Made by a program: the position numbers and the translations under genes. From NCBI GenBank assembly GCA_964023275.1, contig OZ029916.1, positions 29,603,087-29,667,086 of the forward strand: 64,000 nucleotides of DNA. Direction: 5' to 3'. Positions 1,276 to 17,700 of this stretch are shown here, in pieces. Position 1 is the first letter of the stretch, and the number at the start of each line of letters is the position of its first letter. The notes beneath the pieces were generated by a model, which ran no database searches, was not told the DNA's origin, and saw only the letters and a list, made by a program, of their open reading frames with translations. The stretch is from Norana najaformis. Taxonomy: Eukaryota; Annelida; Clitellata; Crassiclitellata; Hormogastridae.

Positions 1276-1602
1276 GACTGTGAACGCCTAAGCACTTAAT
1301 CGGCGTTCGTCTGTTGGTTTAGGATCGGCGTCGAAACGAGACAGCTTACACTGGTCAACATAGAAATCGTTACTGACTGGAAAAGGCCCTAATGTGTAGC
1401 ATCTTGGTGTGCTGAACACGAATATAACCATAAAAATTTTTTATTGGCTCTCGTTTTGAAAATATTTCATATAGTTCATTTTTTATGTTTCACCATGTAA
1501 ATTTATGCAGTAGGACTGCGACAATATCCTAAATAAGTCTAGAATGATGTAATATTCCACCTCATTGCATAATCCCATCATGGACACATCATGCACAGTT
1601 GA

Positions 1603-1682
1603 TTACGTCATTTTCTGATGCAATGTAAACTACAGCCAGTCGGCTGCTGACGTAAGATGACGTCAGCAGTGTACTATATAAA
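1603..1682 (+). promoter_or_regulatory. Transposon promoter: three CRE-like sites and a TATA box
   Basis: TTACGTCA (1603-1610), TGACGTAA (1648-1655) and the palindrome TGACGTCA (1658-1665) precede TATATAAA (1675-1682), about 115 bp upstream of the ORF start. CRE/ATF-type sites bind bZIP activators in animals; that they act here is inferred. A TATA box and a related GCTGA.GTCAGC palindrome sit at the same place in copy 2. Confidence 0.6.
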
Positions 1683-1797
1683 GCGAGTCGGAACGGTTGA
1701 GCATTTACAATATTACAGACTTTGTGCGAGACAGTTTAAGTTACTGTTTTATAAAACTATTATTACTTTATCCATTTAGATACAATACAGAACAGTA

Positions 1798-3489
1798 ATG
1801 CCTCGGAAGTGCGTAAATACTGTGGACAACTTTTGTTACATTTGTGGGGAAGTGACATTTGCCAACCAGAAGAAAAGTATCACTTATCAAGTCAAGAAGG
1901 CATATCATGCTTACTTCGAATGCAAGGTTGGTGACCAAGACAAGCCATGGGCCCCGCATATATGCTGTGCTACAAGTACAACACAGCTTTCACAGTGGTT
2001 GAATGGCAAAAGACCATCAATGCCGTTTGCAGTTCCCATGGTGTGGAGAGAGCAAAGCAACCACGTAGATGACTGTTACTTCTGCTTGGTTCCTCCTCTT
2101 TCCGGTGGAATAACGAAGCAAAAGAAGTCGACAATAGTCTACCCAAACATTCCGTCAGCATTGAGACCAGTTCCACATGGTGGTGGACTTCCTATTCCAG
2201 AACCTCCAGCAGAATATATTTTCCTTGATTCATCTGATGAGGACAAGGGTGAGCCGACATGTTCTTCTCCTGGTCCGTCAGCGTGCATTGATCCCGATTT
2301 TCACTGTGGTGCATCATCAACCCCACACAGAATAACACAGGAAGAACTAAATGACCTTGTTCGTGATTTGGACTTATCCAAAAACAAGGCAGAATCGCTA
2401 GGATCAAGACTCCAACAATGGAATCTTCTAGAAGAAGATGTCACAATTACTTCATATAGAAAGCGCCATCAGCAGTTGGAACCTTTCTTTATGAAGGAAG
2501 GTAATCTGGTATTCTGTTTCAATATTGACGACCTCATGAATGCCTTACAGATCACTCATGACCCACAAGAATGGAGACTCTTTGTAGACTCTTCAACACT
2601 GAGTCTTAAGGCTGTGCTTTTGCACGATGGAAACCGTCTTCCATCTATTCCATTAGCGCATGCTGTCCACATGAAAGAGACATACGATAACCTAAAACAG
2701 CTACTGCATTCCATTGACTATAACAGGTACAAATGGCACCTGTGTGGTGATTTGAAGGTAGTTGCCATTTTAATGGGACTGCAGCAAGGATATACAAAAT
2801 ATATGTGTTTCTTGTGTGAGTGGGATAGCCGAGCAAGAGAGTTGCACTACGTGCGGAAGGAATGGACTCCCAGACAAAACATGGCAGTTGGACAGAAGAA
2901 TATCCAGCACCCAGCTCTGGTCGAGGCTCACAAAATCCTACTACCACCCCTTCACATCAAACTAGGTTTGGTGAAGAACTTCGTGAAAGCCATGGACCGC
3001 ACTTCGCCAGCTTTCCGATACCTGCATGAAAAATTCCCTCGACTCAGCGAAGCAAAGATTAAAGAGGGAGTTTTTGTGGGTCCTCAGATTAGAGAACTCT
3101 TCAAAGATGACCGCTTCAACAACTTGCTGGAGGGTGATGCGAAACAAGCATGGAATGCTTTTCGTCTAGTGTCTACAGACTTTCTGGGGAATGTTAGGGC
3201 AGAAAACTACAAGGAACTAGTAGAAGACATGCTCAAGCAGTACCAGAAATTTCGCTGCAATATGTCTCTGAAGATGCATTTCCTTCATTCCCATCTGGAT
3301 TTCTTCCCTGACAACTGTGGTATGGTTAGTGACGAACATGGCGAACGTTTTCATCAAGATATCGCAACAATGGAGCAAAGGTACCAGGGAAAATGGTCCA
3401 CTACAATGTTGGCTGACTACTGCTGGACACTCCGCAGAGATGCTCCCGAACAGCTGTACAAGAGACAGGCAAAAAAATCTAAGAACTAG
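1798..3489 (+). CDS. Putative transposase, uncharacterised Cys-rich family (563 aa, intronless)
   Basis: The frame is uninterrupted from the first ATG after the TATA box to TAG. The N-terminus has CxxC (Cys13, Cys16), a VGDQDKPWAPH block followed by CysCys, and DDCYFC, suggesting a zinc-binding module. An acidic linker follows. The core has three conserved acidic positions in RNase H-like context: Asp264 (FVDSS, then a beta-strand-like SLKAVLL), Asp318 (CGDLKVV) with CFLC at 337-340, and Glu513 in DEHGERFHQ. This spacing, with CxxC between the second Asp and the Glu, is a pattern seen in several eukaryotic DDE transposases. The assignment is my inference; I recall the family only as uncharacterised invertebrate proteins. 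A second, diverged copy is at 15191-16893. Position inside terminal inverted repeats supports a transposition role rather than a host gene. Confidence 0.8.
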   Translation: MPRKCVNTVDNFCYICGEVTFANQKKSITYQVKKAYHAYFECKVGDQDKPWAPHICCATSTTQLSQWLNGKRPSMPFAVPMVWREQSNHVDDCYFCLVPPLSGGITKQKKSTIVYPNIPSALRPVPHGGGLPIPEPPAEYIFLDSSDEDKGEPTCSSPGPSACIDPDFHCGASSTPHRITQEELNDLVRDLDLSKNKAESLGSRLQQWNLLEEDVTITSYRKRHQQLEPFFMKEGNLVFCFNIDDLMNALQITHDPQEWRLFVDSSTLSLKAVLLHDGNRLPSIPLAHAVHMKETYDNLKQLLHSIDYNRYKWHLCGDLKVVAILMGLQQGYTKYMCFLCEWDSRARELHYVRKEWTPRQNMAVGQKNIQHPALVEAHKILLPPLHIKLGLVKNFVKAMDRTSPAFRYLHEKFPRLSEAKIKEGVFVGPQIRELFKDDRFNNLLEGDAKQAWNAFRLVSTDFLGNVRAENYKELVEDMLKQYQKFRCNMSLKMHFLHSHLDFFPDNCGMVSDEHGERFHQDIATMEQRYQGKWSTTMLADYCWTLRRDAPEQLYKRQAKKSKN

Positions 3490-3774
3490 TCTATGACCTG
3501 GTTTTTACAAATATTAACTGTAAGTGTATCACTATTGGCATGCATTGTGCGATATAAAATTACTTCATTTCAGATTACAAAAAAACTAGAGCCAATTCGG
3601 CATTTTCACTGTCATATTCGTGTTCAGCACATATAAATTGATAAGAACTGACTAATTTCATTTCAGTAACATGACTTTTGTAAAAATTTGTTGTCCAGTG
3701 AATTATCAGCGATGACATCCAAGTTTCATATTTAGTCCATGTATCAGATCCAGCCAGATCCAGATTTACATCTA

Positions 3775-3959: not shown

Positions 3960-4272
3960 GCAAATTGGCCCAAGAACAACTTTACTCCAAAAAACTAATC
4001 CGCAGAAAATTGCAATTATTCGGGCATATATGTAGAATGGATGACTCCAGAATACTCAAGACGATAGTGTTTGGCAGAATGGGAGGGAAGAACAGAAGAG
4101 GACGCCCTAACAGAGAGTGGGTAGACGACACCATCTCTTGGTGCAGTAGTAATTCCTTACAACAACTAAGCCACCTGGCACAGGATAGAGACAATTGGAC
4201 GGAGATGGTGAAGCGCGCATCAAGCACCTACGGGCGCTGAACCCATGGTGACTGATGATGATGATGATGATA
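3960..4272 (+). mobile_element. Non-LTR retrotransposon 3' end with (GAT)n tail, 5'-truncated
   Basis: The frame from 3965 to 4240 encodes the typical end of a LINE reverse transcriptase ORF: FGHICRMDD, then KTIVFGRM, GRPNREWVDD and a final KRASSTYGR before the stop. About 10 bases later a run of GATGATGAT begins (4250-4271), which I read as the element's short repeated 3' tail. The same ORF end and tail occur on the minus strand at 14622-14874. No RT catalytic region is present, so this is a dead 5'-truncated copy. The clade cannot be fixed from this tail. Confidence 0.8.
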
Positions 4273-4545
4273 TGAGATGAGATGTGCGATTGTCTGGCTG
4301 TTGGTGGGCTGGACTGTCACCCAAGGGGTTGTGGTTCATCAAGGACAGACATACATTCAAGATTTCTGTTTCACTAGCGCTGTTAACGAACTCGGATATG
4401 AAATGAGTACATCGACAGTGCAATCAGTGCCATGTAAAGAACTGTCGCCCTCATGTGCCGAGTCTAAGAAGAATGAAGTCGCTAATACTTGATAGCAATG
4501 GCTGCCTCTCGGTGGAGGTTAGCTTGCTAAAATGCAATGTACTTT
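4273..4545 (+). mobile_element. tRNA-derived SINE, family A, copy 1
   Basis: A decayed tRNA-like head (TGTCTGGCTGTTGGTGGGC as A-box region, GTGGTTCATC as B-box region) is followed by a body shared with copies at 19655, 54975 and 61345. The shared body includes GCCCTCATGTGCCGAG, ATGAAGTCGCT and ATGGCTGCCTCTC. It begins directly where the LINE (GAT)n tail ends. The family name is unknown to me. Confidence 0.7.
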
Positions 4546-11200: not shown

Positions 11201-14200
11201 TAATTAGTAGGCCTACATTTTGTCAGTTGTTGTCATATTGCCTTCGTAGCCAGGTGATACAAAGTCTGCATTTTGCATATGTAAGCTATGTACTTAACAT
11301 ACCTACAGTCATGCATGCATGCATGCAGCCATACATACATACATACATAAATAGAAACATACATACATACACACACATACATACGTACATTCATACACAC
11401 ATACAAACATACATATGTACATACATACATACATATACATACATACACACATACACACATACACATATACATATATGTATGTATTAAGACACTTCATATA
11501 GCGCATTTTAAGCGCCTCACAAAGCGTTGCACACATGACTATCTAACTGATCTAAACATGTGCGTGTTAAGACAGTTTGAAAATGTTGGCTGAACAGAGT
11601 CAAACGCAATAGCACTTAAGTGCAACGACAGACTGTTCCATCAAATGAGAAGGCACGATTCACTCGAGGTGAAGTGCGGAATGGCAGCATCTGCATTTCT
11701 CCACGGGCTCTAGAGCGCAACATGTATACATGCATAACACATAAATACTTAAACACATGCTTTCATACATCCAACCATATATACATACATACATACATAC
11801 ACGCATACATACAAAGGCCTACATAAAGCCTACATGCGTGCAAACATGCATGTATATTTATAATTTGCAGCTTCTATATCGCCGATGTCTAATGCACAAG
11901 GCATCAACCGATGGCGCACCAAAATCAAGCCGAAATCAAGTCAATATCCAGAATGCATTCAGGGCTATCCAGATATCAAATCCGGCCATGACCATAAAAT
12001 CAGACGAGGGCCGACGCAGGTGTGACCCCGGATTCGCCCTTTCCACAAACGATGTAAGAGTTTCTCTCGTTGATCAGCTGTCAACATCCAAACGAACCCT
12101 TCTTGCATCGAGAAAAAAGAGAGCGAGTGGGAGAGGTCCAGTTTAATCTCGTGGTTGATTGATATCGATTTGTTCCCACTTCATCTTAAAGTTCTAAGGT
12201 AGAAACTGACGCTGTGTAACAATTAGCAAAGCAATTTAAAACCACAAAACATAACAACATAACATCAGAGTATCGAGGGCGAGTCTCTACTGGCCTTGCG
12301 GGGCCCAGAAAGGAGCCTCGTTTGGATAATCGGTCCCAGAAGCTTTCTAGCCAACTTGGACTTCGTATTCTTGTAACAGACATTGCGTTGACCAGTGAAT
12401 CGAATGAGTTCCAACATTCTGCAATTCTGCAGCTAAGCCAGTCTGGTGACACGAACAAAGAGAAAATAATTTAGCCATTCAACTGTCGAATAATTACCTC
12501 TTGTCTGTCTGCCTGTCTATCTATCGATCTATCTATCTCCTATCTATCTCCATCTTTCTCTCTTTGGTTGAATTCTACCATGTATTGTTTGAATGACACG
12601 GTAACCGACTGGTTGAACGCTCACCTTGTAATGCGGGGTGTACAGGTTTGAATCTTCCCTGAGACGGTTATTGTGTAAGGACCTTGAGCAAGTCATTCAT
12701 TTACAACTGCTCAGCGCCATCGGTTGTTGCTTTATCACTATATAGCGGAGCTTAATGAATTCTGAAACAGCAGTAGTAGTAGTAGCAGTAGTAGCAGCAG
12801 TGGTAGTTGTTGTAGTAGTTATTGTTGCTGTGTGTGTTGTTGCTGTGTGTTGCTGTGTGTGTTGTGTGTGTTGTGTATGAGTTGTTATATGTGTTGCTGT
12901 TGCTGTTGTAATAGTAGTAATGATAATAGAAATATAGTAGTAGTAGCAATAAAATAGAGAATCATCTCTTGGGTGGCATTCTCTCTCTCTCTCTCTTTCT
13001 GTCTTTGTCTTTGTCTCTCTCTCCCTCCCTCTTTCCCTCCCTCCCTCTTTCCCTCCCTCCCTCTCGCCCTCTCCCTCTCTCTCAGATGGCATTCTACTAC
13101 TGTACCATGGACTGGGTCGAATGTCTTCTGTTGAGTGAACTCTCAAAAGCACAGTCGTCCTCAGCCGAAAGCTCCATACACGTCGAAGCATTTCCCTGAG
13201 AAAGTCTTCTTTTACAGAATCCTAAATCACGCAATCGCTCTTCTCCCCTGACAACAGACTTTTCACAGGTTAAGATTAATGTCTCGTGAAGCAGCAGACA
13301 CTAATTTGGCCAGGACCTTCAGTTATATATTTTGTGTGGCAATAAGGCGCTCCAAGAGCTGCCAGACACTCGTTTTGGTTCTATTAGTCTCACATGTCTG
13401 GTTGTCCCCAGACAGTACTATTTTTATACCATGCTACACTATCTAATCTTACTTCATATTGTGTATTGTAGTTTAGCCTAGTGTAGTGTATTGTGTTACA
13501 TTAGTGTTGTGTAGTGCAGAGTCGTGTAATGTATTCTAGTCTAGTCTGATGACTTTTATAGCGCCGTTATCATGATACCCAAGGCATCAATGGAAGGTCA
13601 ATTTAATTCACAATCTCCATCCGTTGTAGAATTCCGGTCGAAATCCAGTAATCCAGGGAAACAGGAAAGCAGACTACTCTGGAATAGGCAGTATCTGCTG
13701 CTACCAGACATTAATTTTTAGCGTGAACGGGTTTTGATGCGCGTATACTCCTAGAGGGAAGAAGTGGGCAGATGGATGCTCTTCCCCAGAGCCTCGTACT
13801 GGGTCAACTCTACCGTCCGCATTTCGTCCGCCTTTCAAGCTTCACTGGAAAATAAGTTAATAAGTAAGGGAAGTTGATATCAGTTATCGATCGATCGCTG
13901 TATAGCTTATTGATAATATGGCCTAGGCCTACTGCCACTTCTTAACCACTAAATGTGACCATCAAATTACAAAGTAGGCATCTGTTTATGTAGGCTCATT
14001 TTTTGATCGTCTGATAGTTTCTTGACTTCTGGAAATACCGGTTTAATCTCATCTATTTAGGCTAAATAACTTCTAGCATAAAAATATACAAGGCATCAAT
14101 AATCGAAAGTCGTTTCAAGTGAAACCGTAATCAGAATTGAAGAATGCCCGGCCGAAATGCAATAGGTCAGAGGGACCAGCTGTCAGGCTGCGGTTTCTAA

Positions 14201-14619: not shown

Positions 14620-14701
<82 letters not shown>

Positions 14702-17700
14702 ATAACCGTGGGCTCAATGCCCGTAGGTGTCCGATGCCCGTTTCACAATGTGTCTCCACTCGATTCTGTTTTGAGCCGCATGTCCCAGTCTCTGCAAGTC
14801 CGCGCCACACCACTCCTCAATGTCATCCACCCACTCTCGATGTGGTCTGCCTCTTTTGTTCGTACCTTCCATAACACTGGCCAACACATAATTTGTTGCC
14901 TCAAATGTTAGAACTGTTCCTGGGTATATTTGACCTGCTGATTCCAGAAAAGGCACCAGTTTTCTCCCAGCAGGTCTAGTTTTCGAGATATAGAACATTA
15001 TGCCATATACCAGTCCTTGCCTCTGCTCGCCCATAAAACATAAGGCTATAGCTATAATTATGTAGTGCTCAATTTATTATGTGATACACTAAATAAACAT
15101 AATAATACAAATACTTAAAAGAAAATGGTAGTACCTGAAACTGTACTGATATGATACCAAACAGAACAAGTTTGTTATAAAAATTTCAAGTCATTCGACA
15201 CCGAAGAAGCTCCTTTTGTACGATTTCCGAGTGTGGCATCTGCCGGAACAATCGCGCATAATATTCCAGCAATAGTCTGCCATCATGTGTGCATCCCATC
15301 TTCCTTGATATCGATTTTCCATTGTTTTGATGTCTTGGTGAAATCTTTCACCTTGCTCTTCGCTGAAGTCACCAAGATTCTCTGGAAAGCGATCTAAGTG
15401 ACTGTGGAGATAATGGACTTTAATGCTCATGTTGCAGCCAGGTTGTTGAAATGAAGAAGCATATCCTCTACTAGTTGTGCATAATTGTCTGCCTTCTTGT
15501 TGCCAAGAAAATTTTTAGTTACAAGAACAAAGGAAGACCAGGCACAAGATTCGATTTCATTCATTGATGGTATGAAAAGTGGGTCATTCATAAGTTGCCT
15601 GATCTGTGGACCATCGAAGATTCCAGCCTTCAATTTTTCCATTGTAATTCCTGGTAACTTGTGTACTATGTATTCGAAGCATGAACCTTCTTTATTCAAA
15701 GCCCTGACAAATTGTTTCATCAGGCCTAGCTTTATATGTAGTGGTGGCAGTATGATCCTATCTCGTGCCACCAAAGATTCCTTCATTACATTTTGAGCTC
15801 CAACCACCATGTCTTTCCTCGAAGGCCAATCTTTTCTTGTCCAATGTTCATGCTTGGCTCTACTGTCCCAAAGACACAAAAAGCAGGGATACTTTGTGTA
15901 GCCACTTTGTTGACCAAGGAGGAAATTTACCATCTTCAAGTCTACACAAATTACCCATTGATGTTCTTTGTATTTTATCTTTTCCAGTACTAATGGGATG
16001 GCATTGTACTCTTCTTTCATCCTGGTGGAGTGACCGATTGGAATAGAACCAAATTTGTTGCCGTTATTTAAAAGCACACATTTCAGACTACGTTTTGAAC
16101 TGTCGATAAAGAGACGCCACTCATCTGGGCTGTAATCCGACAGACCAATTTTCTTCAATAAGTTGCTGATGTCATTACAGAATACTAGGTTGTTGTCTTC
16201 GGTAAAGAATGGCAGCAAATCCTTTTCTCTGTTTCTATAAATTGTAATTTTCGTTCCAGGCTGAAGTGCATTCTTTTCCTTTAGTCTGGACGCAAGCAAT
16301 TCAGAGGACTCTTTGGAAAGATTTAAGTCCCTGATCAGATCACTCAACTCTTTTTGGTCAAAACGTTCACTGTGTGAAGTTGATTGGAAATCACTGTCAC
16401 TGCCCCCACTTTCTTCACTTTCGTCATCTTGTCCGATATTGGACATGCAAGTCTCATCGTCTGAGAGCTGAGGTAGTTCGCGAAAAGGTGGAACTGGTAC
16501 AATATCCGAATGCGGAACAGGTCTCCTGGCTGAAGGTATATCAGGGTAAGACAACTTGTGACGATTATTTCGATTGATGCCTATGATATTAACCATACAA
16601 AAGTAACAGTCGTCGAAGTGGTTTATCTGTTCCCTCCAAATCATCGGTACACCAAATTTCAGGCAGCTTCTCTTTCCAATTGTCCAGTGGCGCAATTGTT
16701 CAATACAAGTTTTGCATACTGTATGAGGAGCCCATTGCTTATCTTGATCTCCAAGTTTGACACCAAAATAACCTACATATGCTCTTTTTACAAACTCAGA
16801 AATCGGTTTCCTGTTTGCTTTTAGTGTGTATTCCCCACAAATGTAGCAGAATATGTCTGGATGGTTAATGCAGCTCCGTCTGGAAGTAGCCATAACCTTA
16901 AGGATGTTCGCATCTGAGGAATTAAATGACTAACCTAAAAAATAGTAAGAACATGTAGTTATGTAATGCTCACATTCACAGATTGTTCTTGCGACCAACT
17001 CTTAATATGCCCTAAGACGACTGCGGCTGCTCTAGCTTTCAGGAGGCGGTTTATATAGGCTATAAATGCTGACTTCAGCATAATCTATTTACATAGTTCG
17101 AAACCATGAAACGCTGTATAAGCACAAATAAATTCTAAATGAGGCCATGAATTTAGTGCTGAGTAAGCTGTAGGCTACGGAATAGTTATTTCGTTGAATC
17201 AGCAATATCTCAGCACGCGGCAAGATATGCTGATTTTACATTATAAGGATGCAGGCATTATATGAATCAGCAAGAATTATAATTAGCCATAAATAAAGCT
17301 TATTATGACATTTTAGTTTTGCCAAAGACATCGTTTAAAGAGTGGACTGGGTTTTCTTTACAAAATCGACGATATCTCAGAAACTAGACCTGATGCACTC
17401 AATTCAATGACATTTTCTGAATCAGCGCCCAAAATTACCCCAAGAACAGGTCTAAAACCGAAGGCAACAAGAAAAATTTTTTTTTCTGTTGGCCAGTGTA
17501 ATTCCAAACATCAGAGTCTTAATATTTCTGTCATCCTTCATTCTACAGATTTTTGGCATCAGATTTCAATCGTCTTGGTTTTTACTGCCAGAGTATCGAC
17601 ACCCATCTGGCAAACCTTCCTCCTTTATCCGGGCTTAGGACCGGCGCAAGGGACTGCTGGCTTGCAGTCCCCTGTGGCGGAGTTTATTAGACATTCCTGT

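Follow-up and report, generated by a model that had tools for sequence, protein, structure and literature searches.

The 64,000-nucleotide stretch of contig OZ029916.1 from the annelid Norana najaformis (GenBank assembly GCA_964023275.1, positions 29,603,087 to 29,667,086 of the forward strand; hereafter the window) contains E1, a transposon of 2,624 base pairs (bp) at positions 14875-17498 with its transposase on the minus strand, frameshifted in this copy. Very probably, E1 belongs to a young and autonomous family of cut-and-paste transposons that is present in many copies, falls within the Chapaev3 group (CMC/Transib clade) and encodes a DDE transposase of roughly 567 amino acids (aa). The analysis establishes the ends of the element, its target duplication, the target preference, the near-identity of the copies examined, the intact open reading frames (ORFs) in many of them and the predicted fold of the enzyme.

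E1 is bounded on the plus strand by the 12-mers CACTGGCCAACA (14875-14886) and TGTTGGCCAGTG (17487-17498), which are perfect inverses of each other, and is flanked on both sides by TAA (14872-14874 with an outer A at 14871, and 17499-17501 with an outer T at 17502), so that the complete target reads A-TAA-T. Inward of the 12-mers, the left (14887-15002, plus strand) and right (17361-17486, plus strand) subterminal regions exhibit imperfect inverted homology, which extends over roughly the next 100 bp (blastn: 101 columns, 71% identity), with 14968-15002 and 17361-17395 as the inverted arms. The base-exact boundaries, the inward homology and the flanking TAA had all been proposed in a first-pass annotation of the window, and all three were corroborated, the boundaries also by the copies in the host genome (see below). 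E1 is the sole pair of exact 12-bp inverted CAC termini lying at most 6 kb apart in the 64-kb window that has an identical flanking TWA. The sequence CACTGGNCAACA has exactly four exact matches in the window, namely the ends of E1 and of a second element, E2, while at most one mismatch yields seven matches vs a mean of 0.99 in shuffled sequences. A CACTGGTCAACG match at 12386 lacks a visible partner and was dismissed as a chance occurrence.

The window also contains the empty counterpart of the E1 insertion, a LINE (long interspersed nuclear element) copy without the insert at 4028-4284 (plus strand; detected with blastn and tblastx). Joining the E1 flanks with a single TAA yields a continuous LINE frame, IKTLMFGIMEGTNKRGRP (IKTLMFGI-MEGTNKRGRP), and the joined sequence aligns with the LINE at 4028-4284 across the junction both in blastn (67% identity over 264 columns) and, at the protein level, in tblastx. 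The internal empty site claimed in the first-pass annotation, in which removal of the element and of one TAA restores the LINE frame, is therefore upheld by both methods. A second insertion into a LINE-like frame (locus L042) gave joined flanks that align through the junction with an empty counterpart (L059, 2215-2463) with 57% identity at the protein level. The LINE copy adjoining E1 has a long ATC/GAT microsatellite at its tail (window positions 14620-14701), with a shorter counterpart behind the copy at 4028-4284.

Searches of the host genome (608 Mb in 17 contigs, including the window) revealed 1,287 occurrences (699 + 588) of the exact 28-base left end of E1 and none of the reversed control sequence; TWA stands immediately before 968 of these left ends. 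The search with the right end reported 592 candidate places, of which the best 40 scored (E1 included) are 98-100% identical. We retrieved 41 further E1-type places, 39 of them the best-scoring right ends (the 40th being E1 itself), and matched the ends with up to two substitutions; since the sample consists mostly of best matches, the identities and ORF counts given below are biased towards young copies. Both ends are present at 34 of the 41 places, and 25 of these two-ended copies are flanked by an identical 3-bp duplication (12 TTA, 10 TAA and one each of TGG, ATA and TCA; 22 TWA in total), in 24 cases inside A...T. The base profile of the 34 insertions reads A-T-W-A-T, with the outer A in 31 and the outer T in 33 of them, the T and the A of the left copy in 30 each, and the T and the A of the right copy in 32 each. 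Homology does not continue past 14875 or 17498 in other copies: the 300-bp flanks of 35 copies are mutually unrelated, with one plus-strand match only. Identity among the 34 full-length copies, a set that includes E1, ranges from 98.73 to 99.85% (mean 99.27), and their variation is star-like, with the minor base shared by at least three copies at 10 of the 257 variable columns. The 566-567-aa transposase frame is intact in 18 of 35 copies and broken in the other 17.

In a positional sample, consisting of the first 20 left ends on contig C1 chosen for TWA on their left, 11 have their right end at the distance expected and 10 a matching duplication. In L083 the pattern missed a right end that sits just at the border of the stretch read, and the flank does not match; the remaining copies of this sample are truncated, rearranged, or end beyond the stretch read. 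Three E1-type copies (L036, L039 and L048) combine a TTA flank with a TAA flank, and could be recombinants between copies or the result of point changes. We also considered that the 592 right-end candidates, vs only 3 left-end matches in the DNA search, might reflect short deletion derivatives (miniature inverted-repeat transposable elements), and rejected this idea: the best-scoring copies are mostly near full length, and the left end proved common in the pattern search, the few left-end matches being due to the DNA search skipping very common words.

The transposase of E1 is encoded on the minus strand in two frames. The ORF at 15427-16893 comprises residues 1-488, with the N-terminal Cys/His region and the greater part of the DDE core, and is 94.5% identical to P0001, the closest relative of E1 among the matches listed, while the C-terminal part with the H(4)H motif and the candidate catalytic Glu lies in another frame at 15194-15451. 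The frameshift near 15450 that separates them is private to the window copy among the copies whose sequence there could be matched, and E1 itself would thus be mobile only with the enzyme from another copy. The motifs C(2)C, LH and H(4)H are present in both P0001 and E2 as C337/C340, H386 and H494/H499, and the N-terminal Cys and His residues are conserved at positions 8, 16, 19, 57, 60, 63, 92, 96, 99 and 128 (in 53-57 of 57 rows). The N-terminal region gave a weak Pfam match to zf-AD, below the cut-off, and its separate modeling from the two window sequences yielded a pLDDT (predicted local distance difference test) of 35, upon which the model was discarded.

The predicted model of P0001 has a core of the RNase-H fold, with Transib and RAG1 as the nearest structures, at about 9-14% sequence identity in the structural alignments; transposases of the P element and of Hermes (hAT), which have different ends and 8-bp duplications, match it more weakly than the best Transib/RAG1 entries. 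The relationship to Transib/RAG1 is not visible by sequence profile. A sequence search of the PDB found no match for the E1 protein, a profile search of the PDB gave two weak matches that were dismissed as unrelated proteins, and the viral structure library contained no match at E<=0.001. Searches of Pfam reported no family above the cut-off for either part of the E1 protein, and no match better than E 0.0017 for 51 members of set A2. Judged by this predicted structure, the E1 protein is a DDE transposase with a RAG1/Transib-like fold. It belongs to the element itself, which links a hitherto unnamed protein family to a mobile element.

E2, the second Chapaev3-type transposon of the window (1349-3700, plus strand; 2,352 bp; ends CACTGGTCAACA and TGTTGTCCAGTG), carries an uninterrupted transposase ORF of 563 aa at 1798-3489 (plus strand), which tblastn reported as related to the gene of E1 (1804-3477, plus strand, 49% identity to P0001). 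One of the conserved N-terminal Cys positions is occupied by Ser in the window E2 protein, and by Cys in its closest relative, P0121. The genome search with E2 yielded 1,260 candidates, of which the best 40 scored (the window copy included) are 99-100% identical over essentially the full 2,352 bp, and for the exact 29-base left end the genome has 889 matches (496 + 393; control 0). Twenty copies were read in rank order from the 39 non-window matches, with two ending at base 2351 passed over; copies on the minus strand were left in genomic orientation, without effect on the matching. An identical 3-bp duplication is present in 13 of the 20 (5 TAA, 3 TTA, 2 TTG and one each of TAG, TGT and ATA), of which 8 are TWA and 8 lie inside A...T, a weaker target than that of the E1 family. 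The window copy has no intact duplication, its left flank reading TTA and its right flank AATTAT; this argues against a simple history of insertion there. TTA or ATTA is found 1-2 bases further out in three of the seven non-duplicated copies. Such an outward TTA/ATTA in place of an adjacent duplication was observed in L101, L105, L131 and the window E2, and looks as if filler bases had accompanied the insertion.

Chapaev3, which goes back to the description by Kapitonov and Jurka (2007/2008; cited in both PMC4411706 and PMC4079192), is characterized in the consulted portions of PMC4079192 by CAC/GTG termini, a TWA duplication between A and T, and the motifs C(2)C, LH and H(4)H, while duplications are stated there to be "3- to 4-bp" long. 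The same portions report full-length Merrow and Garfield elements of 2.3-2.5 kb that encode 554-562 aa in two exons, most other Chapaev3 genes having one, and repeated horizontal transfer of these elements. Excerpts of PMC4411706 assign Chapaev3, whose proteins carry a Chapa zinc finger at the N-terminus, to the Transib superfamily, and those of PMC12730594 discuss a CMCT grouping and include both CACTA/EnSpm and Chapaev in CMC. E1 resembles Chapaev3 (Merrow, Garfield, Conan) in its CAC/GTG ends, its 3-bp TWA duplication inside A...T, the C(2)C, LH and H(4)H motifs, an enzyme of about 560 aa and its animal host; unlike in Merrow and Garfield, the gene of the E1/E2 type is uninterrupted, and E1 is somewhat longer. 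The E1 copies outnumber any entry in Table 1 of PMC4079192 (Merrow_PM, >254; the short derivative ConanN2_AC, 281), though those counts follow other rules. E1 shares the CAC/GTG ends and the three motifs, as published, also with the Chapaev group proper, from which it differs in its 3-bp TWA duplication, and it differs from Transib/RAG1 both in its 3-bp duplication and in that no second protein gene was noticed in it. The Chapaev group duplicates 4 bp and Transib 5 bp of the target. On a comparison of features, E1 thus appears to fit Chapaev3. The first-pass annotation had presented an uncharacterized invertebrate family newly linked to a mobile element: the link stands, while the transposon class turns out to have been described already, since ends, target, motifs, length and fold all match Chapaev3, so the gap is one of database naming.

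Several observations weigh against this assignment or complicate it. The 3-bp duplications that the first-pass annotation expected at other insertions are borne out by the 25 identical pairs mentioned above, and fail at 9 of the 34 two-ended E1 copies, where the flanking 3 bp mismatch; 7 of the 20 E2 copies have no identical duplication, and the E2 target is looser than the published Chapaev3 target. The best surviving alternative, which we consider unlikely, is an undescribed superfamily in its own right within the CMC/Transib clade, with the Chapaev3 marks retained by common descent; it would account for the absence of a Pfam family above the cut-off for the E1 protein (best E 0.0017 in set A2) and for the uninformative names of all the relatives among the matches listed, and Chapaev3 itself was compared by its published description only, yet the A-TWA-T target, the 3-bp duplication, the CAC/GTG ends, the ordered motifs, the length and the uninterrupted gene all agree with that description. 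An element of the CACTA/EnSpm type would likewise have CACTG ends and 3-bp duplications and is grouped with Chapaev in CMC (PMC12730594, excerpts); it is very improbable, however, given that the A-TWA-T target is a published mark of Chapaev3 and that Transib and RAG1 are the nearest folds, while the lack of an EnSpm-type domain in Pfam excludes little. Finally, a domesticated host gene family surrounded by inverted repeats by chance, to which the annotation of relatives as ordinary genes in several genomes might point, has a negligible probability and is refuted for the E1 family by the copy number and the duplications (1,287 identical ends, 968 of them after TWA; 35 copies in unrelated flanks, mostly with target duplications), with frames broken in 17 of the 35 copies.

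The transposase family matches 2,375 database proteins (E<=0.001). Among the 120 that were listed, the relatives are named "uncharacterized", "hypothetical" or "unnamed" and include lizard, frog and bat annotations, so the restriction to invertebrates assumed in the first-pass annotation does not hold. In a midpoint-rooted tree of 52 rows, built from 50 of 240 listed relatives together with both window proteins, E1 and E2 belong to opposite halves, each supported 100/100. Among P0033, P0043, P0053 and P0113, the proteins from lizard, frog and Hydra are grouped together (98/90), next to the one from a locust (98/92), a grouping that is discordant with animal phylogeny and suggestive of horizontal transfer, in line with the published cases. 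Garfield is present in a bracovirus (PMC4079192, excerpts); scans of viral contigs chosen on that account and of genome contigs confirmed no E1-type relative, and tblastn of phage records found none. One family member, P0087, is annotated in a metagenome-assembled genome of a "Pseudomonadota bacterium", which is probably due to eukaryotic contamination. Five conserved peptide words of the family had no match in the searched literature.

We propose for the E1 family that the Cys/His-rich N-terminal region is probably DNA-binding and most likely recognizes the CACTGGNCAACA ends together with the inverted subterminal sequence, that the transposase would cut at the CAC/GTG ends with D264, D318 and either E513 or E516 as putative catalytic residues, and that the element would be inserted at A-TWA-T with duplication of 3 bp. 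By analogy with RAG and Transib, the excision may be of the hairpin type. Intact copies would drive the family and may provide broken copies, E1 among them, with enzyme in trans.

What is new here is not a class of transposons: it is two young, high-copy families, which record very recent bursts of Chapaev3 in a single genome, with many intact enzyme genes demonstrated for one of them. The papers listed by a literature search included no report of tested Chapaev activity, in a coverage that mostly excludes subscription journals. It is possible, at somewhat less than an even chance, that both families are still moving in this genome and, with their thousands of nearly identical ends and many uninterrupted genes, could become the first Chapaev transposons for direct tests of RAG-like cut, hairpin and paste chemistry outside Transib. 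They are also a resource for experimental work on the RAG/Transib clade beyond Transib itself. Finally, a protein family that is scattered over animal annotations as "uncharacterized" hereby receives a name and a function.
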